Of a stretch of 64,000 nt of DNA, positions 1,787 through 63,995 are shown one piece after another (the first letter of the stretch is position 1; every line of letters begins with the position of its first letter). Origin of the DNA: Alphaproteobacteria bacterium PA4 (lineage in GTDB: Bacteria; Pseudomonadota; Alphaproteobacteria; Sphingomonadales; Sphingomonadaceae); NCBI GenBank assembly GCA_002256005.1, contig NKIQ01000009.1, positions 1 to 64,000 on the forward strand. Reading direction: 5' to 3'. A program made the translations under genes and the position numbers. A model generated the notes under the pieces. That model was not told the DNA's origin. It did not search any database and saw nothing but the letters and a program-made list of their open reading frames with translations.

Positions 1787-3061
1787 ATGGCCATCACGCA
1801 TGCAACCGCCACGTCGGATGGCGATGCCGCTGGCGCCGATGTGCCGCAGCTGCGTGTCTTCGTGTTCGCGCTGTTCTTCATCTTTGGCGGCATCACCTCG
1901 CTGAACGATGTCATCATCCCCAAGCTGAAATCGCTGTTCACGCTGAATTTCACCGAGGCGATGCTGGTACAGTTCTGCTTCTTCACCGCCTATGCGGTGA
2001 TCGGCATTCCCGGCGCCCGGCTCGTCAAGCGCATCGGTTATCTGCGCGGTGCCGCCGCCGGCCTTGTCATCATGATGATCGGCTGCCTGTTGTTCATACC
2101 GGCGTCCGAAACCGCCAGCTATCCGGTGTTCCTGTTCGCGCTGTTCGTGCTGGCCAGCGGCGTCGTCGTCGTCCAGGTCGTCGCCAATCCGCTGATCTCG
2201 ATGCTCGGCCCGCCGCGCACTGCGCCCAGCCGGCTCACCTTTGCCCAGGCCTTCAATTCGCTCGGCACGACGATCTTTCCGATTTTCGGGGCGATCCTGA
2301 TCCTCGGCAGCCTCGCCACAGTCGACCCGGCGACGCTGACCGGCGCCGCCGCGGATGCCTATCGCACCGCCGAAAGCCAGGCGATCGTCCATGGCTATCT
2401 GGGGCTGGCCGCGGCGCTGGCCGTGGTGGCGCTGGTCGTCTGGCTGTTCCGCAATCGCCTGCCCGCCGAAAGCCATGAGGCCGCCAAGGGGCTGGCCGGG
2501 CTCGATCTGCTGCGCCGGCCGCGCTTCGGCTGGGGCGCGCTGTGCATCTTCCTCTATGTGGGGGCGGAGGTTTCGATCGGATCGATGATCGTCAGCTATC
2601 TGATGCAGCCACAGGTGCTGGCGCTGGCCCAGCAGGACGCTGGCAAGCTGATCGGGCTCTATTGGGGCGGTGCCATGGTCGGGCGCTTCATCGGATCGGC
2701 GGCGTTGCGCGTCATCAGCCCTGGCAAGGCGCTGGCCGGCGTCGCCATCGGCGCCATCGCGCTCATCGCCCTGTCGGTGTCCACCACCGGCACGGTGTCC
2801 GGCTATGCCCTGCTTGCCATCGGCCTGACGAACGCCATCATGTTCCCGACGATCTTCACGCTCGCCTGCGAAGGGCTGGGGCCGCGCGCCGCCGATGGCT
2901 CCGGCATCATCAATGTCGCGATTTTCGGTGGTGCGGTCGTCCCGCTGCTCACCGGGCTCATTGCCGATGGCAGCGGCAGCCTCGCCATGGCGTTGCTGCT
3001 GCCCGCTGCCTGTTATGCCGTGATTGCCGGCTTCGGCTGGTCGGCGCGGCGTCCGGTGTAG
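1787..3061 (+). CDS. Sugar MFS transporter, FucP / glucose-galactose type
   Basis: The product is a 424-residue transporter with 12 predicted membrane segments, resembling the FucP/GluP group of H+/sugar symporters. Recognisable blocks are FFIFGGITSLNDVIIPKLK in helix 1, QFCFFTAYAVIGIPGARLVKRIGY spread over helices 2-3, and GLYWGGAMVGRFIGSA in the second half. I chose the ATG at 1787 because it follows the purine-rich AGGGGGAAAG and precedes a plausible short cytoplasmic tail. An upstream in-frame ATG at 1658 would add 43 residues that do not look like transporter sequence. The gene is divergent from the AI-2E gene and convergent with accA. The exact sugar is unknown. Confidence 0.88.
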   Translation: MAITHATATSDGDAAGADVPQLRVFVFALFFIFGGITSLNDVIIPKLKSLFTLNFTEAMLVQFCFFTAYAVIGIPGARLVKRIGYLRGAAAGLVIMMIGCLLFIPASETASYPVFLFALFVLASGVVVVQVVANPLISMLGPPRTAPSRLTFAQAFNSLGTTIFPIFGAILILGSLATVDPATLTGAAADAYRTAESQAIVHGYLGLAAALAVVALVVWLFRNRLPAESHEAAKGLAGLDLLRRPRFGWGALCIFLYVGAEVSIGSMIVSYLMQPQVLALAQQDAGKLIGLYWGGAMVGRFIGSAALRVISPGKALAGVAIGAIALIALSVSTTGTVSGYALLAIGLTNAIMFPTIFTLACEGLGPRAADGSGIINVAIFGGAVVPLLTGLIADGSGSLAMALLLPAACYAVIAGFGWSARRPV

Positions 3062-3073
3062 AAAAATGCGGAC

Positions 3074-3102
3074 GTGCGGGGGGCGCGGCCCGGTGCCCGC
3101 AC
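3074..3102. terminator. Hairpin between convergent genes
   Basis: GTGCGGG (3074-3080) pairs perfectly with CCCGCAC (3096-3102) in the short gap between the convergent MFS and accA genes. It has no clear T-run on either side, so it is at best a weak intrinsic or Rho-assisted terminator. Confidence 0.4.
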
Positions 3103-3115
3103 AGCGCGATCACAT

Positions 3116-4072
3116 CTACAGCAGCCGGCCCATTTCGACGAATTTGTTGCGGCGGGCCTGGCGCAAGGCCTTTGGCTCCATGGCCAGCAGCGGCGTCAGT
3201 TCGGCCGCGATGGCCATGGTCAGCGAGGCGATGGCGGCGCCGGGGTCACGATGCGCGCCACCCAGCGGCTCGGTGATGATCGCATCGATGACGCCCAGTT
3301 GCTTCAGGTCGCCGGCGGTGACACGCATCGCTTCGGCGGCTTCCGGGGCATGGCTGTTGCCGCCGGGCCCGGCGGTGCGCCACAGGATGGAGGCGCAGCC
3401 TTCCGGCGAGATCACCGCATAGACGGCGTGTTCGAACATGATGACCTTGTCGGCCGCGGCGAGCGCGACGGCGCCGCCGGAGCCGCCTTCGCCGGTGATG
3501 GCGGCGATGATCGGCACGGGCGCGGCGAGGCAGGCTTCGGTGGCGCGGGCGATGGCTTCGGCCTGGCCGCGTTCTTCGGCATCAAGGCCGGGAAAGGCGC
3601 CGGCGGTATCGACGAGCGTGACGACCGGTACGTTGAAGCGGCCGGCGAGCTCGATCAGGCGGATCGCCTTGCGATAGCCCTCGGGCCTGCCCATGCCGAA
3701 ATTGTGCTTCACGCGGCTCGCGGTGTCGTTGCCCTTTTCATGGCCGATGACCATGACCGGCACATTCTGGCCGCGCAGCCGGCCAAGCCCGCCGATGATG
3801 GCATGATCTTCACCAAAGGCCCGGTCGCCGGCCAGCGGCATGAAATCCTCGACCAGCGCCTTGACCATGTCGGTGAAGTGCGGCCGCGCCGGGTGGCGGG
3901 CGACCTGGGTCTTCTGCCAGGGCGTCAGCCGCGCATAGGTTTCGGCAAGCAGGCGGCGGGCGGCACCCTCGGCATGCTTGGCGCCGGCTTCATCGCCGGC
4001 GGCGCGATAGTCCGCCGCGCGCGCCTGGATGGTCTGGACCGGCTTTTCGAAGTCGAGATAGGCTATGCTCAC
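3116..4072 (-). CDS. accA: Acetyl-CoA carboxylase carboxyltransferase subunit alpha
   Basis: The 318-residue product is the alpha subunit of the carboxyltransferase. With AccD it moves the carboxyl group from biotinyl-AccB to acetyl-CoA, giving malonyl-CoA for fatty-acid synthesis in the cytoplasm. The start [19 protein letters not shown] is typical of AccA. The crotonase-fold core is seen in [20 protein letters not shown] (residues about 95-115), in [21 protein letters not shown], and in the glycine-rich oxyanion segment [16 protein letters not shown]. The length is normal for alphaproteobacteria. It follows the glycosyltransferase gene by 31 bp on the same strand and could be cotranscribed with it. 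Confidence 0.97.
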
Positions 4073-4103
4073 GCTATCCGCCTAGAGCGGTGCGCGGCTG
4101 CGG

Positions 4104-5285
4104 TCAATCGAGCCGCAGCGCCTGCGCCATGTCTCGGGCGAGGCGCTGTGTCGCAGCCTGGGGGTCATGCCCGGCCAATGTGGCGGCCATGGCGCGGGCG
4201 GCGGCGCGTTCCGGCGCGTCGGATTGCACCATCGCATCGAGCAGGTCGCCCAGTGTCGCCGCATCCCAGGCGGGGGCGATGTGGCCCAGGCCCTGCGCCG
4301 CCAGCCGCCAGGCGTGGCATTGCGCCTCCTGCCGGTCGGGCAGCAGCAGCTGCGGGCAGCCGGCGGTGAGGGCGTCGAGCGCCAGGCCATGGCCGCCGCG
4401 CGTCACCGCCAGCACCGAATCGGCCAGCACCAGCGCCGGATCGAGCGGTTCGCGTTCATGGGCGATGGTACCGGGGAGCGGGAAGGTCGGTGCGCTGCTG
4501 CACATCCAGATGACCGGCCAGCCCCGTGTCGCCAATGCCTGCGCCAGCGGTGCCGCCATCGGCCGATCGAAGGGGATATAGACGAAGATGCGGGGGCCGG
4601 GGGTGTCGGGCCATTCCGCCACAGCCGCCGCGCCGATCCCGGACAGGGGGCCGTAGAAGGCCGTATCGCGGCGCCCGTCGGGCGATTCGAGGGCGGGCAG
4701 GCTGGCAAGGAAGGCCGGCGCGCGATCGAGCAATTCCCACAGGCCGCCCAGCACAGGCGCGCCGTAGTGACGGCAGACGGCGCGGATCACCCGGTCGGCT
4801 ACCGCATCGGCGGCAGCGCGCTCCGCCACCGACAGCGTGGCATCGGGCATCAGCGCCGGCATCGGCCGCGACGCCGGCGGGCAGGTGAAGGGCGTGCCGA
4901 TCCGCGCCGCCGGCAGCCCGGCGACATGCGCGGCCAGCAGTGCCGCCGGGGCATGCTCGGTATAGATGGCGCCGGGGCCGATCAGCTCGAACAGCGCCAG
5001 CCAGCCGCCGACCAGCGCGACCAGCGCCTCGTCATCGGCGAAGCCGCCGTCGGCATAGACCTGGCCCAGCGTCAGGGCCGGCAGGGTCAGCCGGCTGCCG
5101 AGCCAGATCGGCGCCTGTAGGGTGCGTGCAAAGGGTTGACAGGGCAGGGCTTTTGCCGCCGCCAGGTCGCGGACGGCCAGCCAGCTGTCATGGCCCAGCA
5201 CCGACAGGGCGCCCGCCACCGGCGCCAGCATGTTGAGGTGCCCGAGGCCGAGCCCCAGTTCCTGACAGGCGAGCAGCCGGGTCAT
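4104..5285 (-). CDS. GT-B fold glycosyltransferase, MGT-like
   Basis: The 393-residue product looks like a UDP-glycosyltransferase/MGT-type (GT1/GT28-like) enzyme. The N-terminus, MTRLLACQELGLGLGHLNML, has the Gly-His-rich loop common at the acceptor side of these enzymes. The C-terminal nucleotide-sugar region reads TRGGHGLALDALTAGCPQLL and then LPDRQEAQCHAWRL, matching the GG-G-E/D-G-P-DQ pattern of the family. I placed the start at the ATG at 5285; a longer in-frame start at 5399 would overlap trmB. It lies between trmB and accA on the same strand. Donor and acceptor are unknown, and no cell-envelope or antibiotic gene cluster surrounds it. Confidence 0.75.
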   Translation of the reverse strand: MTRLLACQELGLGLGHLNMLAPVAGALSVLGHDSWLAVRDLAAAKALPCQPFARTLQAPIWLGSRLTLPALTLGQVYADGGFADDEALVALVGGWLALFELIGPGAIYTEHAPAALLAAHVAGLPAARIGTPFTCPPASRPMPALMPDATLSVAERAAADAVADRVIRAVCRHYGAPVLGGLWELLDRAPAFLASLPALESPDGRRDTAFYGPLSGIGAAAVAEWPDTPGPRIFVYIPFDRPMAAPLAQALATRGWPVIWMCSSAPTFPLPGTIAHEREPLDPALVLADSVLAVTRGGHGLALDALTAGCPQLLLPDRQEAQCHAWRLAAQGLGHIAPAWDAATLGDLLDAMVQSDAPERAAARAMAATLAGHDPQAATQRLARDMAQALRLD

Positions 5286-5337
5286 CGGCGGGGGATTTCG
5301 GGCGAAAAAGGGGCCGCCAGGGATGCAGGCATCAACG

Positions 5338-6021
5338 CTAGACCCGCCGATAGCGGAAGTACCAAACCTCGTGCCCCAGCCGCCGCGCCTTGGCTTCATA
5401 ACGGGTCTGCGGCCAGTCGTCGGGGCGGTGCTGCCAGTCGGCCGGGGTTTCGGCCAGCCATTCGAAATCGTGGCGCTGGCCCATCTGCATCAGCGCCCAG
5501 CGGCAATAGACGGGGTGATCGGTGCCGAGCCGGAACTCGCCGCCGGGCTTCAGCGCGCGGGCGACAAGGTCGAGCGGGCCGGGGTTGGCGAAGCGGCGCT
5601 TGGCATGGCGCGCCTTGGGCCAGGGGTCGGGGTGCAGCAGGAACACCCGGTCGAGGCTGGCCGGCGGCAGGCGATCGAGAATGTCGAGCGCGTCGCCATT
5701 GTGCAGGCGGATGTTGCCGAGGCTGCGCTGCTCGACCTCCAGCAGCGCGCCGACGACGCCATCGAGGAACGGCTCGGCGCCGATGATGCCGACGTGCGGG
5801 TTGGCTTCCGCCTGCGCCCCCATATGCTCGCCGCGGCCGAAGCCGATTTCCAGCCACAGCGGCCGATCGGCGCCGAACAGGCCGGCGGCGGTCAGGTCGC
5901 CGGTCGCCGGCACCGCCAGCTGCGGCAGCAGGGTTTCGACGAGCGCCGCCTGGCCTACCCGCAATTTGTGACCGGTGCGGCGACCATAGAGCCGGCGTAT
6001 GGTGGCAGGATCGGATGTCAT
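5338..6021 (-). CDS. trmB: tRNA (guanine-N7-)-methyltransferase
   Basis: TrmB methylates G46 in the variable loop of tRNA using S-adenosylmethionine. The 227-residue form starting at the ATG at 6021 (MTSDPATIRRLYGRRTGHKL) matches the usual N-terminus; 16 extra residues would come from the ATG at 6069. The SAM-binding and catalytic blocks are visible as LWLEIGFGRGEHMGAQAE, VGIIGAEPFLDGVV and the signature VFLLHPDPWPKARHAKRR. The C-terminal FRLGTDHPVYCRWAL is also typical. In many alphaproteobacteria trmB follows lnt and metK; here those two lie 1.7 kb away, separated by a monooxygenase gene on the opposite strand. Confidence 0.96.
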   Translation of the reverse strand: MTSDPATIRRLYGRRTGHKLRVGQAALVETLLPQLAVPATGDLTAAGLFGADRPLWLEIGFGRGEHMGAQAEANPHVGIIGAEPFLDGVVGALLEVEQRSLGNIRLHNGDALDILDRLPPASLDRVFLLHPDPWPKARHAKRRFANPGPLDLVARALKPGGEFRLGTDHPVYCRWALMQMGQRHDFEWLAETPADWQHRPDDWPQTRYEAKARRLGHEVWYFRYRRV

Positions 6022-57100: not shown

Positions 57101-57262
57101 GGCACAGGCCTAGCGCAATCCCGCCGCCGACCCAAGCGGACATGATGACACGACGCCATGACACGGTGCCGAACCGGGCGTCGAACCTTGACCGGCGAGT
57201 CCGGCTGCGTCATCGTCGCCCGACGGGTTCAAAGCGTGAACACGGCAAAGGGTGCAAGCGTC

Positions 57263-59677
57263 ATGGCCAGCCGCGCCGCAAGAGGATCAGCAAAGCCACC
57301 CGCCCCCGGCAACGGCCGGTTGGCGCGGGCGGGTGCCGCCGCGCGCGCCGCGGTCAATCGCCTGCTCGTGCTCGGTGCGGCGCTCGCCCTGCTGCTGCTG
57401 GCGCTGGCCCTGCTGCTGGCGCTGCTCACCTGGTCGCCGCTCGATCCCTCCTTCAACAGCGCCACCGGGCGGGTGGCGAGCAATGCGCTGGGCGGTATCG
57501 GCAGCCATGTCTCCGACCTGTTGCTGCAACTGGCCGGCTGGCCGACGCTGGTGCTGGCCGTGCCGATCGCCGTCGCCGGCCTGCGCCTGGCGCAGGGGGC
57601 GGATGTTCCGCTGCGCCGCTGCACGCTGGCGACCGGCGGCGGCATCCTGCTCGCCGCCATGGCAGCCGGCGGCTATGGCCTGCCCGATCTCGGTGCGCCG
57701 GCGGGCTTCGGCGGCCTGTTCGGGCGGCTGGGGCAGGGCATCGCCATGGCGCTGGGCGATCTGCCGGCGCTGGCCGATGTGCCGGTCGATACGATCCTCG
57801 CCGTGCTGCTGACGGCGCCGGCGCTCGCCCTCATCGCCTGGGGCTCGGGGCTGGGTCTTGCCGATCTCGGCGCGCTCGCCGGCCTGTCGGGGCGCGTCGC
57901 GGCGCTGCTGCCGGACCGCGACGCGGCCGACGAGAGCATCCCGGTGCGCGCCCGCCCGGCGCGGGCCGAACGCCAGCCGGCCGTGCGCGACGCAGCGCCC
58001 GAGGCACTGGACGACCAGCCATCGGCACCCCGCACCGTCGTCGTCGAGCCACAGCGCGGCGCCGCGCCCGGCAAGCGCCTGCAGCGCGAACGGCAGTCGG
58101 CGCTCGATCTCGGCGATGCCGCCATTTTGCCCAGCCTGTCGTTGCTGAAGCCGCCGCCGAGCGGCCCGGCCCGGCGCATCGACGCCGCCAGCCTCGAACA
58201 GAATGCCCGGCTGCTGGAAGGCGTGCTGGAGGATTTCGGCGTGCGCGGCCGCATCGGCGAAGTGCGCCCCGGCCCGGTCGTCACCATGTACGAGCTGGAG
58301 CCGGCGCCGGGCATCAAGGCGTCGCGCGTCATCGGCCTTGCCGACGACATTGCCCGCTCGATGTCGGCGCTGTCGGCGCGCGTCGCCGTGGTGCCGGGCA
58401 AGAATGTCATCGGCATCGAACTGCCCAACCAGACCCGCGAGATGGTCAGCCTGTCGGAACTGCTCGGCAGCCGCGCCTTCGAGGATCGGGCGGCGGTGCT
58501 GCCGCTGGTGCTGGGCAAGGACATCTCCGGCGACCCGGTGATCGCCGATCTGGCGCCGATGCCGCACCTGCTCATCGCCGGCACCACCGGCTCCGGCAAG
58601 TCGGTCGGGCTCAACGCCATGATCCTGTCCCTGCTCTACCGGCTGGGGCCGGCGGACTGCCGGATGATCATGATCGATCCCAAGATGCTGGAGCTGAAGA
58701 CCTATGACGGGATTCCGCATCTGCTGGCGCCGGTCGTCACCGATCCGCCCAAGGCGATTCGCGCGCTGAAATGGGCGGTGGAGCAGATGGAGGATCGCTA
58801 TCGCCAGATGTCGGCGATCAACGTCCGCAGCCTCGCCAATTTCAACCAGAAGGTTGCCGATGCCAAGGCGAGCGGCAAGCCGTTCGTGCGCAGCGTGCAG
58901 ACCGGCTGGGACCCCGACACCCAGGAACCGATCATCGAGGAGGAAGTGCTCGATTTCGAGAAGCTGCCGCTGATCGTCGTGGTGGTCGACGAGCTCGCCG
59001 ACCTGATGATGACGGCGGGCAAGGAGGTCGAGTTCCTCATCCAGCGGCTGGCGCAAAAGGCGCGCGCCGCGGGCATCCACCTGATCATGGCGACGCAGCG
59101 GCCCTCGGTCGATGTCATCACCGGCGTCATCAAGGCCAATCTGCCGACGCGCATCAGCTTCCAGGTCACCTCGAAGATCGACAGCCGCACCATCCTCGGC
59201 GAACAGGGCGCCGAGCAGCTGCTGGGCAAGGGCGACATGCTGTGGATGTCGGGCGGCAAGCAGCTGATCCGCGTCCATGGCCCCTTCGTCACCGATGACG
59301 AGGTGGAGGCCGTCGCCGACCATTGGCGCCGCCAGGGCATGCCGGCCTATGTCGGCGCCGTCACCGAAGACCCGGGCGAGGACGATGACAGCGGGCCGTT
59401 CAGCGGCGGCGATGACGATGGGGGCCGACCGCGCGGTGGCGGTGGTGGCCGCGGTGGTGGCGGCGGCGACGAGGAAGCCGATGTCTATGCCCGCGCCATC
59501 GAGATCGTCGCCATCGCGCAAAAGGCCAGCACCAGTTACCTGCAGCGGCAATTGCGCGTCGGCTACAACAATGCCGCGCGGCTGATCGAGCAGATGGAGG
59601 CCGATGGCTTCGTCTCCCGCCCCGATCATGTCGGCCGCCGCGAGGTGCTGATCGACGAAAACGGCCAGCGGCGCTAG
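57263..59677 (+). CDS. ftsK: DNA translocase FtsK
   Basis: FtsK pumps chromosome ends through the septum and aids dimer resolution. The 804-residue form from the ATG at 57263 has four membrane helices (about 30-180), a short linker, the alpha/beta RecA-like motor with Walker [11 protein letters not shown] (near residue 440) and Walker [14 protein letters not shown] Gly/Asp-rich hinge ([11 protein letters not shown]) precedes the C-terminal gamma winged helix ([18 protein letters not shown]). In-frame starts further upstream (GTG 57237, ATG 57158) exist. The linker is short compared with E. coli FtsK. Confidence 0.95.
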
Positions 59678-60574
59678 ATGCAGATGTCGGGATCGCCCCT
59701 GCATCGCCCGCACCATCTGGGTGTGCTGGCAGCCACCGCCGCAACCGGCCTCGGCGTGCTGGTGATAGCGGCGGCCGGTGCGCCCAGGGCCTATCTGGTG
59801 ATCAATCTGGCGGCGCTGGTCATCGGCATGGCGCTGCTGGCCATCGTGCAGCGCACGCGATTGGCCCCGGCGTCGGCCGGGTGGCTGGCACTGGCGGCAG
59901 CGGCCGCCCTGCTGGCCACCGCCCTGCTTGGCAGCAGCATCGAAGGTGCGATACGCTGGGTGCGGATCGGCACTGTCTCGGTCCAGCCGAGCCTGATGCT
60001 GCTGCCGTTGCTCGTGCTGGCCTTTGCCCGTGTTCGCGATTCGGCAACGACTCTGGCCATGCTGGTGAGCGCCCTGGCGCTGGCGTTGCAGCCCGACCGG
60101 GCCATGGCCGGCGCGCTGGTCGCGGGGCTTGCCGCGTTGGCGGCAACGGCGCGGGACAGGCGGGTGCTGCTGGCGCTGGCGGCGGCGCTCGGCGGCTTTG
60201 TGGTCACGCTGGCGCGTCCCGACCGGCTGCCGCCAACGGCCTTTGTCGAACAGGTCTATGCCGGCGCCTTCGGCTTTTCGCTGCTGGCCGGACTGGCGCT
60301 GCTGGTTGGATCGGCGTTGCTGCTGCTGCCCCTGCTGGCACTGGACCGCACCATCGGCATGGTCTTCGCCGCCGTGTGGCTGGCCATTCTGGCGGCGGCG
60401 GTCCTTGGCAATTATCCAACGCCGCTGCTGGGTTATGGCGGCAGTGGCATCATCGGCTATCTGCTGGGCCTGGCCGCCTTGCCGCATCCGGGCCGGCGCC
60501 AGCTTCGGGTGTCGGTGTCGGCAACCGCTGATGCGGATCGCACGACCGTCGGCGATCTTTTCGCCGCCCGCTGA
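59678..60574 (+). CDS. Divergent SEDS (FtsW/RodA-like) membrane protein, possibly inactive
   Basis: The 298-residue protein is almost all membrane helices (about eight or nine). Several blocks resemble SEDS peptidoglycan polymerases. GAIRWVRIGTVSVQPSLMLL (90-109) looks like the FtsW segment around RWIGLGPLSFQPSE, LALALQPDRAMAGALV (133-148) like LQPDLGTA, and PTPLLGYGGSGIIGYL (247-262) like the P-x-x-SYGGSS segment. The stretch PTAFVEQVYAGAFGF (186-200) aligns with HTDFIFAIIGEELGY, so the essential Asp would be Ala188. It is about 100 residues shorter than FtsW. Its ATG directly follows the ftsK stop. The call rests on motif comparison by eye. Confidence 0.55.
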   Translation: MQMSGSPLHRPHHLGVLAATAATGLGVLVIAAAGAPRAYLVINLAALVIGMALLAIVQRTRLAPASAGWLALAAAAALLATALLGSSIEGAIRWVRIGTVSVQPSLMLLPLLVLAFARVRDSATTLAMLVSALALALQPDRAMAGALVAGLAALAATARDRRVLLALAAALGGFVVTLARPDRLPPTAFVEQVYAGAFGFSLLAGLALLVGSALLLLPLLALDRTIGMVFAAVWLAILAAAVLGNYPTPLLGYGGSGIIGYLLGLAALPHPGRRQLRVSVSATADADRTTVGDLFAAR

Positions 60575-60577
60575 CGC

Positions 60578-61240
60578 TCAGCGCGGCTGCACCAGCGCCG
60601 CAATCTGGCGCTCGACAAGGCGGCAAAGGTCGGCGGCCAGATCGGCGCCCGGTGGCAACAGGCGATCGATGGCGGCGCGGCCGCTGGCGAAGGCGGTGAG
60701 GCCGGAGATGAGATGTATGGCCTCCAGCCGCGCCGGGCCGGCGCCGGGGGTGCTGCGGGCGGCACTGATCAGCTGGCCGACCAGCTCGACGCCGGGGCGC
60801 CACAGCTGTTCGAACAGGATGTCGAAACCGGCGCCGGGGTCGGCGAGCTCGCGCTGGATGAACAGCGCCGCGCCCTGTGCGTCGCCCGTGCGCATCAGGA
60901 ACTGCGCCAGTGCCAGCATGACATCGGACAGGCTTTGCCGTGCCGCCGCGGCATCGCCCCCGCTGAGCACCGTTTCGGCAGCACGGCTGGTCGGCAGCGC
61001 GGCGGCAACATAGCGATCGACGATATGGCCGGCGCAGGCGCGGTACAGCCCCTGCTTGCTGCCGAAATAATATTGAATGGCGGGCAGATTGACCCGGGCG
61101 GCCTCGGCAATCTCGCGGGTCGAGACCGCGTCAAAGCCCCTGAGGCCGAAAGCCGACAGCGCCACGGCCAGGATGCGCTCGCGCGTTTCGGCGCCGCGGC
61201 GATAGCCCGTGCGGGCAGGCTGGGGGGCGGATGCCGTCAT
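60578..61240 (-). CDS. TetR/AcrR family transcriptional regulator
   Basis: The 220-residue repressor has the TetR helix-turn-helix at residues 17-65 (RERILAVALSAFGLRGFDAV, then STREIAEAARVNLPAIQYYF). The ligand domain resembles the CerR/DUF1956-like C-terminal type (FIQRELADPGAGFDILFEQ). It is divergent from the MpaB-type oxygenase gene. An AT-rich nested palindrome lies between them, so it probably represses both genes. It is convergent with the SEDS-like gene, with stops 3 bp apart. Confidence 0.92.
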   Translation of the reverse strand: MTASAPQPARTGYRRGAETRERILAVALSAFGLRGFDAVSTREIAEAARVNLPAIQYYFGSKQGLYRACAGHIVDRYVAAALPTSRAAETVLSGGDAAAARQSLSDVMLALAQFLMRTGDAQGAALFIQRELADPGAGFDILFEQLWRPGVELVGQLISAARSTPGAGPARLEAIHLISGLTAFASGRAAIDRLLPPGADLAADLCRLVERQIAALVQPR

Positions 61241-61282
61241 GCCGGCATCAAGCGGCGGCGGCGGGCCCGGGTCAAGAGTCGC

Positions 61283-61314
61283 TTGACTTCAAAAAATATC
61301 AATTGATAGATATT
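61283..61314 (+). promoter_or_regulatory. Promoter and operator between tetR and the MpaB-type gene
   Basis: TTGACT (61283-61288) is followed after 18 bases by TAGATA (61307-61312). The perfect palindrome TATCAATTGATA (61297-61308) and an outer inverted repeat AATATC/GATATT (61295-61300 and 61309-61314) overlap the spacer and the -10. This is the position expected for a TetR-type operator that blocks transcription of the oxygenase gene. Confidence 0.6.
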
Positions 61315-61335
61315 GCCAGTAACGAAAGGTCGGCC

Positions 61336-62691
61336 ATGACGCGCGCAGCCATCGACAATCGCAGCATCTGGGATGCGGTGCTGGCCCAGCGCGAGGCGGT
61401 GCCGGCGCTGTGGGCGCATTTCGATTTCGAGGCGCCGGCCGAGCGGTTCACGACCGAGCCGGGGATCAAATCGACCCTGCCGGCGGCGCATGCCGACAAG
61501 CGCGACGCCATCCTCGCCGATACCGAGCTGGTCGAGCGCCTGCGCGCCTATTCGATGATGGGCGATGTGACGGCGGATCGCTACGCCGCGCTGATGGCGA
61601 CGCGCAAGTTTCGCGAGCTGATCGACCTGCTGACGCTGGCCTGTGATGAGGGCATTGCCGCCGTGCCCGATGCCCCGCCGGAACTCGCCGCCTTCATCGC
61701 CGATCTGGAAGACCGGCCCGACTGGCTCGACATGGCGCTGGTCGAGCGCGGCGCCGCCATCGAGCGCAACCCGACTGCGCATATCTCGCCCTTTGCCGTG
61801 CGCGGCGCCTTCATCGCCACCTTCATGAACGAATATGCGGCGCTGCCGATGGCGCTGACCGGCACGCTGTCCGACACTGCCGCGGCGCGGCGCGTCAAGG
61901 AAACCGCGAACTTCTTTGCCGTCACCACGCTGCCCGGCGCGCTCGATCGCTTCGGCCCCGGCTTCAAGGCGGCGGCGATGGTGCGGCTGATGCATTCGAT
62001 GGTCCGCACTAACATCGCGCGCCGTCCGCAGCTCTGGGACCGGGCGAAATACGGCTTTCCCATTCCCCAGGTCGACCAGATGCCGGCCGGGCTGATCGGC
62101 ATCTTCCTCACCTCCTATCGCCTGATCGCCGAGGGCCGCAGCACCTTCACCGCCGACGAGCGCGCCCAGGTCGAGTTCGCCCGCTATCGCTGTCGCTTGC
62201 GCGGCCTGCCCGAAGCGCTGTTGCCGACGACGCCGCAGGGTATCGTCGACATCATGAACATGCGCGCAGCAACACTGCGTGCCAGCTTCGACGACCGGAT
62301 CTGCGGCACGCTGGTGCGCGCCACCATGGCGGCGACGCTGTGGGAGGGGGAGAGCCTGCGGATGCGCATCTTCCGCCGGGTCGAACAGAGCTTTTCCCGC
62401 GTGTTCTTCCTCAGGAATTTCATGAACAACGACCGCGCGGCGGCGGCAAAGGTGGGCGTCGCCATCAGCGCCGGCGATCTGATGCTGTTCGGTGCCGCGC
62501 TGCTGTGGATTAGCGGCAAGATGGCGGCCTATCGGCTGGCGGCGCTTGTGCCGGGGCTGGCAGGCCTTGCCGACCGGCGGCTGATCGCCAAGATCGGCGC
62601 GCTGCTCAAACATTATGGCCATGCCGAGTTCGTCGTTTACGAACAGCGCGCCGGCCCGGCGCCGGCGGCTGTGCAGGCACAGGCCGCCTGA
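61336..62691 (+). CDS. Oxygenase MpaB family protein (DUF2236)
   Basis: The 451-residue protein matches the MpaB/DUF2236 family, which includes the rubber oxygenase Lcp and the fungal MpaB cleavage oxygenase. Conserved parts include AAAMVRLMHSMVRTNIARRP with its His and Arg residues, and AGLIGIFLTSYRLIAEGRST. Family members bind heme b and cleave C-C or oxidise terpenoid and polyketide chains; the substrate here is unknown. The ATG at 61336 follows AAAGG. The gene is divergent from its probable TetR repressor. Confidence 0.85.
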   Translation: MTRAAIDNRSIWDAVLAQREAVPALWAHFDFEAPAERFTTEPGIKSTLPAAHADKRDAILADTELVERLRAYSMMGDVTADRYAALMATRKFRELIDLLTLACDEGIAAVPDAPPELAAFIADLEDRPDWLDMALVERGAAIERNPTAHISPFAVRGAFIATFMNEYAALPMALTGTLSDTAAARRVKETANFFAVTTLPGALDRFGPGFKAAAMVRLMHSMVRTNIARRPQLWDRAKYGFPIPQVDQMPAGLIGIFLTSYRLIAEGRSTFTADERAQVEFARYRCRLRGLPEALLPTTPQGIVDIMNMRAATLRASFDDRICGTLVRATMAATLWEGESLRMRIFRRVEQSFSRVFFLRNFMNNDRAAAAKVGVAISAGDLMLFGAALLWISGKMAAYRLAALVPGLAGLADRRLIAKIGALLKHYGHAEFVVYEQRAGPAPAAVQAQAA

Positions 62692-62697
62692 CGCGAC

Positions 62698-63087
62698 TCA
62701 ATCGACCGGCGGCTGGCCGGGCGGATAGTGCGAAACCTCGACCCGCAGCCCGTCCGGATCGGGCAGGAATACAGCCGTCGTCCCATCGGCGAAATGCTGC
62801 AGACGCGCCTCGAAACCGCCCGCCGTCATGGTTTCGGCGAGGCGCGCGACAAAGGCGGCGTCAGGCGCCGTAAAACCCAGATGATTGAGGCCGGGACCAT
62901 GGCGTTCATAGTCGCGGGTGTCTGGCTTCGCCGTCTTGAACTGGACATAGAGGCCGGTGGCGCTTTTCCAGATGCCGGGCTTCACGGCAGTGAAGCCGAG
63001 TTCGGGCAGCAGCAGCGCATAGAAGCGATGCGCAGCCTCGGCATCCCGCGACAATATCGTCAGATGGTCGAGAGGCAACGGCGTCAT
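62698..63087 (-). CDS. VOC family protein (glyoxalase/bleomycin-resistance fold)
   Basis: The 129-residue protein begins MTPLPLDHLTILSRDAEAAH and ends with FLPDPDGLRVEVSHYPPGQ. The His in LDHL, the His in LNHLGF and the Glu in VEVSHY are the usual metal ligands of single-repeat VOC proteins. It is a short stand-alone gene convergent with the MpaB-type gene, with stops 6 bp apart. The substrate is unknown. Confidence 0.88.
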   Translation of the reverse strand: MTPLPLDHLTILSRDAEAAHRFYALLLPELGFTAVKPGIWKSATGLYVQFKTAKPDTRDYERHGPGLNHLGFTAPDAAFVARLAETMTAGGFEARLQHFADGTTAVFLPDPDGLRVEVSHYPPGQPPVD

Positions 63088-63160
63088 GGGGCTGTCTTCG
63101 CGTGCGGCACCACAACAGTTACACGCCGAAATGCGGTAACGCCACGGTCCGCGCCCCGGG

Positions 63161-63263
63161 GTCCGGAACCTGGGCTGAATCGACATTCGAGGTTGCAGCG
63201 GCCTCCGCCCCGGACTTGATCCGGGGCGGAGGCCTCGCAAACGTTGAAGGCCGATGGACCCTA
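63161..63263. repeat. Palindromic intergenic element R5 with nested hairpin
   Basis: The left end GTCCGGAACCTGGGC and the following ATCGACATTC match the left end of R1 (19 of 22 positions over 63169-63190). The centre is a perfect 15-bp stem (63200-63214 with 63220-63234) around CTTGA, the common alphaproteobacterial palindrome. The right end TTGAAGGCCGATGGACCCTA (63244-63263) resembles the R1 right end and contains the TAG stop of the TauE/SafE gene. Confidence 0.7.
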
Positions 63264-63995
63264 ATCCCGCAGGAACAGCCCGATCGTCAGCGCCGTGCCG
63301 ATGATGATGACGCCGATTTTCAGCGCGCGTTCCGGCATGCGTTTCAGCGCATGGGCGCCGAGATAGCCGCCGAGCATGGCGCCGGCGCCGACGATCGCGG
63401 CCTCCCGCCAGGCGACGGCGCCAGAGACGGCGAAGATCAGTGCCGCCGAGAGGTTGGACAGGCCGATGAGGACATTCTTGGTGCCGCCGGCGTTGCGCAC
63501 CGGCAGCCGGGCCAGCGTCAGCGAGGCGAGGGTGAGGATGCCGGCACCGCCGCCGAAAAAGCCGCTGTAGAGCGCGATGCTGCTTTGCGTCAGCACCGTC
63601 ACCCAGGCCGGTGGCGGCGCACTCGCGGCGCTGCGCTTCGGGCCGAAGCTGCTCCAGGCGAACAGCGCGGTGGCGATCAGCACCAGCCAGGGCACCATGG
63701 CGGCAAAGGCGCGCACCGGCGTGGCGATGAGCAGGAAGGCGCCGGCGATGCCGCCGGTGAGGCTGATCAGCGCCAGGGTGCGGAACGACAGCCGTTCGGC
63801 GCCCGAAACCAGCGAGCGCCCGGCCCAGCCGGTGGTGATCTGGCCGGGAAACAGCGCCATGGTCGAGGTGATGTTGGCGAGTTTCGGGTCCAGCCCCGCG
63901 GCGATCAGCGCCGGCAGCGTGATGAACGAGCCGCCGCCGGCGAGGGCGTTCTGCGCCCCCGCCCACAGCCCGGCGACAAACAGGAGCAGCAGCAT
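63261..63995 (-). CDS. Sulfite exporter TauE/SafE family permease
   Basis: The 244-residue protein has about eight membrane helices and the duplicated family motifs. AGGGSFITLPALIAAGLDPK in the first half and FFGGGAGILTLASLTLARLP in the second match the TauE/SafE pattern, and AGGTKNVLIGLSNLSAALIF follows. Members export sulfite, sulfoacetate or other anions, and the substrate is not predictable. The ATG at 63995 is near the right edge, so a start beyond the window cannot be excluded. Its stop lies in repeat R5. Confidence 0.9.
   Translation of the reverse strand: MLLLLFVAGLWAGAQNALAGGGSFITLPALIAAGLDPKLANITSTMALFPGQITTGWAGRSLVSGAERLSFRTLALISLTGGIAGAFLLIATPVRAFAAMVPWLVLIATALFAWSSFGPKRSAASAPPPAWVTVLTQSSIALYSGFFGGGAGILTLASLTLARLPVRNAGGTKNVLIGLSNLSAALIFAVSGAVAWREAAIVGAGAMLGGYLGAHALKRMPERALKIGVIIIGTALTIGLFLRD

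Follow-up and report, generated by a model that had tools for sequence, protein, structure and literature searches.

What kind of protein is encoded by the short open reading frame that lies directly behind ftsK in the 64,000-nucleotide stretch of DNA analysed here (the window), and is its position informative about its role? A preliminary description of the locus regarded the product as an FtsW-like protein without polymerase activity that would be made together with FtsK and be its partner at the division site. The 298-residue open reading frame at 59678-60574 on the plus strand was confirmed as described, and so was the abutting start codon: the TAG of ftsK ends at 59677 and the ATG of the SEDS-like gene begins at 59678, with zero overlap. 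The features concerned are as follows.

57158..59677, plus strand: ftsK, given with the start of the ORF list, which may be upstream of the true one
59471-59653, within ftsK: FtsK_gamma domain, located by a domain match
59678..60574, plus strand: gene for the compact SEDS-like protein P0001 (298 aa), placed by the ORF list, Pfam/NCBIfam, the family profile and a structural model

On the minus strand, a 1066-aa open frame (57287-60487 of the window) lies opposite ftsK and the SEDS-like gene and is probably a high-GC artefact. Downstream (60578-63995), several genes, including that of a TetR-like regulator, separate the SEDS-like gene from a TauE/SafE-like gene, both being recognized by eye; in genome G021 of the same genus, unlike in the window, a TauE/SafE-like gene immediately follows the SEDS-like gene.

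The SEDS family (PF01098, CAZy GT119) has a GT-C type membrane fold, characterized by about ten transmembrane helices and a beta hairpin in loop 2. Similarity of the window protein to this family above the level of chance was confirmed, being weak for the single protein and firm when its relatives were included. The single protein matched PF01098 with 19.7 bits (E = 4.6e-4), below the curated cut-off of 26.4 bits, and the NCBIfam RodA model at E = 3.8e-5; phmmer gave zero matches among PDB sequences at E<=10. To represent the relatives, 113 loci were gathered, five of which were dropped as the frame ended before the match. The remaining 108 loci included 7 duplicates (the row L041, for example, covers only the C-terminal part, and its duplicate L068 is complete), and 83 rows were chosen from them for the family alignment, with duplicates, short rows and very similar rows left out. 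The 83-row profile matched RodA (MrdB) 8tj3 (E = 1.4e-10), RodA 6bar (1.6e-6) and FtsW entries (8.9e-5) in the PDB, always within the N-terminal half, and PF01098 was matched at E<=1 by 76 of the 83 family members. As SEDS comparison rows, 26 loci were examined, of which 9 passed a first motif filter and 25 passed a profile filter. The hhalign probability was 97.5%, in the N-terminal half only, when the comparison set was nine SEDS proteins from this and related genomes, and 99.3% in the global alignment with the 25 SEDS rows.

The structure prediction suggested earlier as a check was run, and the AlphaFold model of the window protein gave the SEDS fold (pLDDT 90.9, pTM 0.89). By our count, it contains nine helical segments of at least 15 residues, one of 12 and a low-confidence C-terminal helix, together with a loop-2 beta hairpin at residues 86-102. 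Foldseek returned six matches at E<=0.001, all of which were FtsW or RodA entries, with moderate TM-scores (0.51-0.60 by query length; rmsd 5.9-7.7) that we count against the best explanation given below. The SEDS-like identity proposed for the protein was thus borne out by the 83-row profile and by these six matches.

The same genome carries two further SEDS genes above the Pfam cut-off, namely RodA (locus L001; QTDFIF; 371 aa) and FtsW (HTDYIF), the latter located elsewhere in the genome in a mur-type cluster between murD and murG, as recognized by eye from the flanks. The available evidence supports the window gene as a third SEDS-fold paralogue beside these two and not as an FtsW orthologue. 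The protein is indeed shorter than SEDS proteins, but its deficit relative to the 371-aa RodA is 73 residues and not the approximately 100 that had been estimated. The codons of the motifs compared below are located as follows.

59954..59959, plus strand: Arg93-Trp94, SEDS loop-2 motif (R in 83/83 rows, W in 82/83)
60089..60097, plus strand: Gln138-Pro139-Asp140, the QPD motif (83, 82 and 83 of 83 rows)
60215..60253, plus strand: codons 180-192, a short loop in place of SEDS extracellular loop 4 (model and alignment)
60416..60445, plus strand: Pro247-Ser256 (PTPLLGYGGS), loop-5 motif (alignment)

Kept and lost positions were determined in a joint alignment of the 83 family rows and the 25 SEDS rows. 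The landmarks VQPS, LQPD and P-LLGYGGSG, on which the original assignment had been based, do match SEDS motifs in it. Conservation within the family was 65/83 for Q103, 83/83 for P247, 77/83 for G254 and 73/83 for S256, and R-W, QPD, the acidic position discussed below and P-YGGS were kept in rows from several phyla. The Glu and Lys of QPSExxK, present in 25/25 SEDS rows, were found at the aligned columns in 0/83 family rows, and the window protein has L106 and L109 there. In the model, the loop of codons 180-192 joins the helices 161-179 and 193-214. Six highly conserved glycine columns of loop 4, as well as the F217, E274 and N324 columns, were gaps in all 83 family rows; the SEDS-invariant loop-4 Arg aligned with R180, and Arg occupied this column in 51 of the 83. 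Counted by alignment column, position 191 lies 51 residues after the QPD Asp in 70/83 rows (range 47-54); in the SEDS rows, the spacing between the Asp residues of QPD and TDF was 95-103 in the 19 of 25 that showed both motifs. Compared with SEDS proteins, 44-52 residues are missing, mostly from loop 4. Because loop 4 is gone, the window protein is, as judged from its sequence, probably not a peptidoglycan polymerase.

Mutational data on E. coli FtsW bear on these positions. According to PMC8765783, complementation is abolished by changes of K133, A135, R137, W138, Q147, P196, L198, G199, D297, G371, Y379, G380 and G381 and of the loop-4 residues Y242, R243 and R246, and E150A, H295A, T296A, P368A and S378A are tolerated; we infer which of these residue numbers belong to which motif. 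SEDS proteins are also described, in PMC10920833, as having an essential Asp and a conserved Arg that aligns with the phosphate-binding Arg of O-antigen ligase. The loop-4 Arg opposite R180 would be this O-antigen-ligase-like residue.

The position of the catalytic Asp required separate consideration, as the catalytic Asp297 of E. coli FtsW had been reported to appear as Ala188 in the window protein. Two codons, separated by two others, compete for this place.

60239..60241, plus strand: Ala188, the counterpart of the catalytic Asp in the preliminary description (family alignment)
60248..60250, plus strand: Glu191, more likely than Ala188 to correspond to the catalytic Asp of SEDS proteins (acidic in 83/83 rows)

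Position 188 of the 83 rows was occupied by P in 58, A in 11, D in 5 and other residues in 9, so that Pro predominates. At position 191, D (47) and E (36) accounted for all 83, and a loose V/I/A/T-[DE] pattern within the last 170 residues was present in 98 of 98 rows tested. In three sets of joint MAFFT runs, D265 of the genome's own RodA was placed opposite E191 in 7/8, 18/24 and 37/40 runs, and opposite A188 in 1/8, 4/24 and 3/40, respectively, with a gap in 2/24 of the second set; since the runs share sequences, they are not independent tests. E191 was likewise paired with D265 by hhalign with the 25 SEDS rows in the global setting; with the local setting the alignment stopped at residue 179, and with the remaining one this stretch was unpaired. 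The A188 register was obtained in the second, low-scoring segment of the hmmsearch against the PDB (0.3 bits) and in a weak C-terminal part of the global hhalign with nine SEDS rows. In the structural model of the window protein a helix starts at 193, and in the RodA control model it starts at D265, which is nearer to the E191 register; as the mean pLDDT of the control was a modest 76.9, and less than 60 around the Asp, its helix start is only a weak hint. From these alignments, Glu191 is likelier than Ala188 to stand opposite the catalytic Asp, and Ala188 is a possible but less favoured counterpart. Loss of catalysis by Asp-to-Ala replacement was rejected as a defining trait, the register being uncertain with Glu191 favoured. 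Of the proposed polymerase-dead SEDS-like protein, the probable lack of polymerase activity thus stood on account of the missing loop 4, and its Asp-to-Ala basis was unsupported.

We also investigated how widely this compact protein occurs. Among 60 genomes (own included), 31 gave a match at E<=0.01, most of them weak and partial, as canonical SEDS proteins would give. Strong matches were the window's own protein and those of G008 (69%), G021 (60%) and the other-genus genome G035 (52%); a more distant match was found in G024 (34%, E = 9e-17). The genus was represented by 24 genomes, own included, of which 3 had a strong match; three of the 24 were less than 85% complete, and the genus genome G018 reached only E = 2.5e-4, at a canonical SEDS gene with TDYIF. 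An order-wide search using the first, five-row profile gave matches at E<=1e-8 in 100 of 396 genomes (own included), and 79 loci came from the named genomes scanned (best 80 of 90), which belong to Alphaproteobacteria, Clostridia, Bacteroidota, Myxococcota and others. When the 83-row profile was applied to 398 Pseudomonadota genomes, with at most five candidates being scored in each, 333 matched at E<=1e-8, and a full-length match of at least 125 bits was present in 10 of the 398; the next-best match fell to 58 bits, with coverage of the N-terminal half in frames as long as those of SEDS proteins. As full-length matches are few and SEDS-like partial ones many, the compact family is patchy. A plasmid search gave no result.

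The neighbourhood of the gene was then compared among the relatives. Both G008 and G021 have the compact gene directly behind ftsK. The FtsK_gamma domain was found in 22 of the 24 genus genomes; the search motif was not found at two of these ftsK loci, which were not evaluable, and the compact gene followed ftsK in 3 of the other 20. Among the 108 loci, ftsK preceded the gene at L004, L005, L006 and L087 (a duplicate of L005), and thus in no genome beyond these three. The proposed survey of the gene after ftsK therefore turned against the partnership that it was to examine, many other members lying behind padR, pth or an lpd-like gene instead. In particular, pth is upstream of the PadR-less L052, L123 and L141, a gene for a pyridine nucleotide-disulphide oxidoreductase, probably lpd, is upstream of L061, L062, L063, L064, L065 and L121, and a 2-oxoacid dehydrogenase E2 gene is upstream of L066. 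These neighbours were obtained by a rough greedy choice of ORFs, and only those identified by Pfam are named. The repeated occurrence of compact SEDS-like genes behind such housekeeping genes looks like insertion after essential operons. Partnership with FtsK was rejected as a conserved trait, ftsK being upstream in three genomes only among the 108 loci, and the FtsK neighbourhood of the window gene looks like a local accident.

A PadR-like ORF, detected with a model grown from the PadR of G035, was present upstream on the same strand within approximately 1 kb at 54 of the 108 loci, a share that is not that of a random sample because the locus-gathering profile already held a PadR-linked row; at one further locus, L126, it lies farther off. 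In G035 itself, the compact gene follows a PadR gene (PF03551, 45.4 bits) and its protein has an N-terminal extension. A model derived from the PadR-linked rows themselves, including one misread row (L041), detected such an N-terminal domain at 53 of the 54 loci with PadR and at 0 of the 54 others. When half of the PadR-linked rows were held out among 101 distinct loci, the domain was recovered in 25, 25, 23 and 24 of 25 PadR-linked loci and each time in 0 of 51 others, one of which (L142) is without upstream sequence; the misses were one for L040, whose N-terminal domain and SEDS core (about 1100-1560) do not share a reading frame, and two for L069. None of the four N-terminal domains scanned was matched by any Pfam model, including HAAS, and one of four compared with NCBIfam, L069, matched NF038403 (permease prefix domain 1). 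L069 (4662-5897), in which this prefix domain is fused to the compact SEDS part, is from a Gemmatimonadetes MAG, and its SEDS part clusters among alphaproteobacterial rows, a possible transfer or binning error. At the loci of the window clade (L004-L006), neither a PadR-like ORF nor an N-terminal domain was found, and the one PadR match of the window's own genome sits on another contig.

A tree was constructed from 88 of the 108 rows, leaving out the 7 duplicates and 13 rows shorter than 230 aa (L041 and L068 are both absent from it). The three ftsK-linked rows formed one group with a support of 100, inside a 53-row group composed of 42 PadR-linked rows, 8 rows without PadR and the ftsK-linked trio (SH-aLRT 80, quick tree). 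PadR-less members recurred in several parts of the tree, and PadR and the N-terminal domain changed together in 8 or 9 of 9 independent tree pairs (starred branches; median p = 0.004). The simplest reading of this arrangement is that the ancestor of the window clade lost both PadR and the N-terminal domain. The dN/dS values among the three ftsK-linked genes were 0.36-0.42, compared with 0.15-0.17 for the adjoining ftsK segment.

The explanation that we prefer, and to which we would give an even chance, is that the window gene encodes a compact SEDS-like protein without loop 4 that binds a precursor without polymerising it, and that its relatives act as PadR-coupled sensors. The cavity would still accept an undecaprenyl-(pyro)phosphate-linked wall precursor, and the absence of the loop-4 lid and of the partner-docking surface would preclude peptidoglycan polymerisation. 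In the PadR-linked relatives, the N-terminal domain may relay ligand occupancy to PadR, by analogy with the proposal for HAAS-PadR pairs. In the window clade, the membrane part would persist alone, probably being translated behind ftsK by virtue of its position and not as a partner of FtsK. A broader version is possible but doubtful: a SEDS branch would have shed both loop 4 and its dependence on a class B PBP to become a receptor for undecaprenyl-linked precursors or a stand-alone transferase, often signalling to PadR by means of a detachable N-terminal domain, and the window clade would have been rewired to be made with FtsK. The partnership with FtsK at the division site proposed at the outset is very improbable. 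The abutting genes, the SEDS fold and the appearance of Ala188 in some alignments speak for it, but the last is likely a register error with Glu191 favoured, and the presence of ftsK upstream in only three genomes, with pth, an lpd-like gene or padR in that place in many others, is contrary to it.

Two further explanations take the conserved residues and the lost partners, respectively, as their starting points. The protein could be an active compact glycosyltransferase that uses Glu191 as the catalytic base and needs no class B PBP for the transfer of a lipid-linked sugar; position 191 is acidic throughout the family, Asp in 47 of 83 rows, the R, W, QPD and P-YGGS residues are conserved in several phyla, and a helix of the model starts near E191, as one does at D265 in the low-confidence RodA model. 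We consider this unlikely, since loop 4 is missing, the loop-4 Arg column has R in only 51/83 rows, the QPSExxK Lys and Glu occur in none, and substitutions of the loop-4 residues Y242, R243 and R246 of E. coli FtsW fail to complement (PMC8765783). Alternatively, the gene could be a slowly decaying leftover, a formerly PadR-linked sensor deprived of its regulator and N-terminal domain and hitching behind an essential gene. The absence of both partners, the restriction of strong matches to 3 of 24 genus genomes and the higher dN/dS relative to the ftsK segment are in line with such decay; nevertheless, all three frames are open, family-invariant residues are kept at 60-69% identity, dN/dS is below 1, and PadR-less members are found in several parts of the tree, and we regard decay as quite improbable.

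If lipid-linked precursors are bound, the family would represent a natural cell-wall sensor built from a polymerase fold. It also reveals the particular SEDS positions that remain fixed without the loop-4 lid, which bears on the role of the cavity residues. For the window, the lesson is a modest one: adjacency to ftsK is no evidence of a division role.

Finally, we compared the window protein with known systems. It resembles FtsW and RodA in its fold, in the R-W, Q(P)S, QPD and P-YGGS motifs and in the acidic residue that probably occupies the catalytic position, and differs from them in the absence of the loop-4 lid and of the QPSExxK Glu and Lys, in Glu in place of Asp, and in its score below the Pfam cut-off. 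In the literature searched, no paper on SEDS pseudoenzymes or non-catalytic SEDS paralogues was found, and among papers on SEDS with ECL4, PadR or sensor, on SEDS subfamilies, and on PadR with FtsW and Sphingomonas, no title indicated this family. The closest described case is Lmo0421 of Listeria, a PadR-controlled, non-canonical FtsW/RodA homologue in the LstR/sigC operon that, according to PMC6624303, is unable to replace FtsW1 or the RodA proteins. The same paper reports no antibiotic or wall-ultrastructure phenotype for it, which we count against the best explanation; a length of 416 aa is given in PMC6686043. HAAS-PadR pairs have been proposed as alternatives to two-component systems and include FtsW/RodA-type fusions such as CAC98500.1, according to PMC11237479, and we read Lmo0421 as being CAC98500.1, that is, a HAAS fusion.

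Like Lmo0421, many relatives of the window protein are SEDS homologues tied to PadR, whereas the window gene has neither PadR nor the N-terminal domain. The likeness to HAAS-PadR pairs lies in the co-occurrence of an N-terminal domain and a PadR-like gene in the compact relatives; the N-terminal domains of the four proteins scanned, however, match no HAAS model, and the one match, in L069, is to NF038403. In Clostridium lacusfryxellense (L126), a PadR-like ORF (2917-3336), a full-length SEDS gene (3315-4613) and a compact gene (4977-5624) stand in a row. The full-length SEDS protein, P0002, has an N-terminal extension of approximately 88 residues, retains both loop 4 and HTDFIF, and matches PF01098 with 155.6 bits from residue 89, with no other Pfam match at E<=1e-4; the compact-family profile did not match it at E<=1e-3. 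Filing the compact family with the Lmo0421 type was rejected because P0002, taken as representing that architecture, keeps loop 4 and escapes the compact profile. Judging from the arrangement in L126, the compact family therefore looks like a different SEDS branch that has met the same kind of signalling partner.
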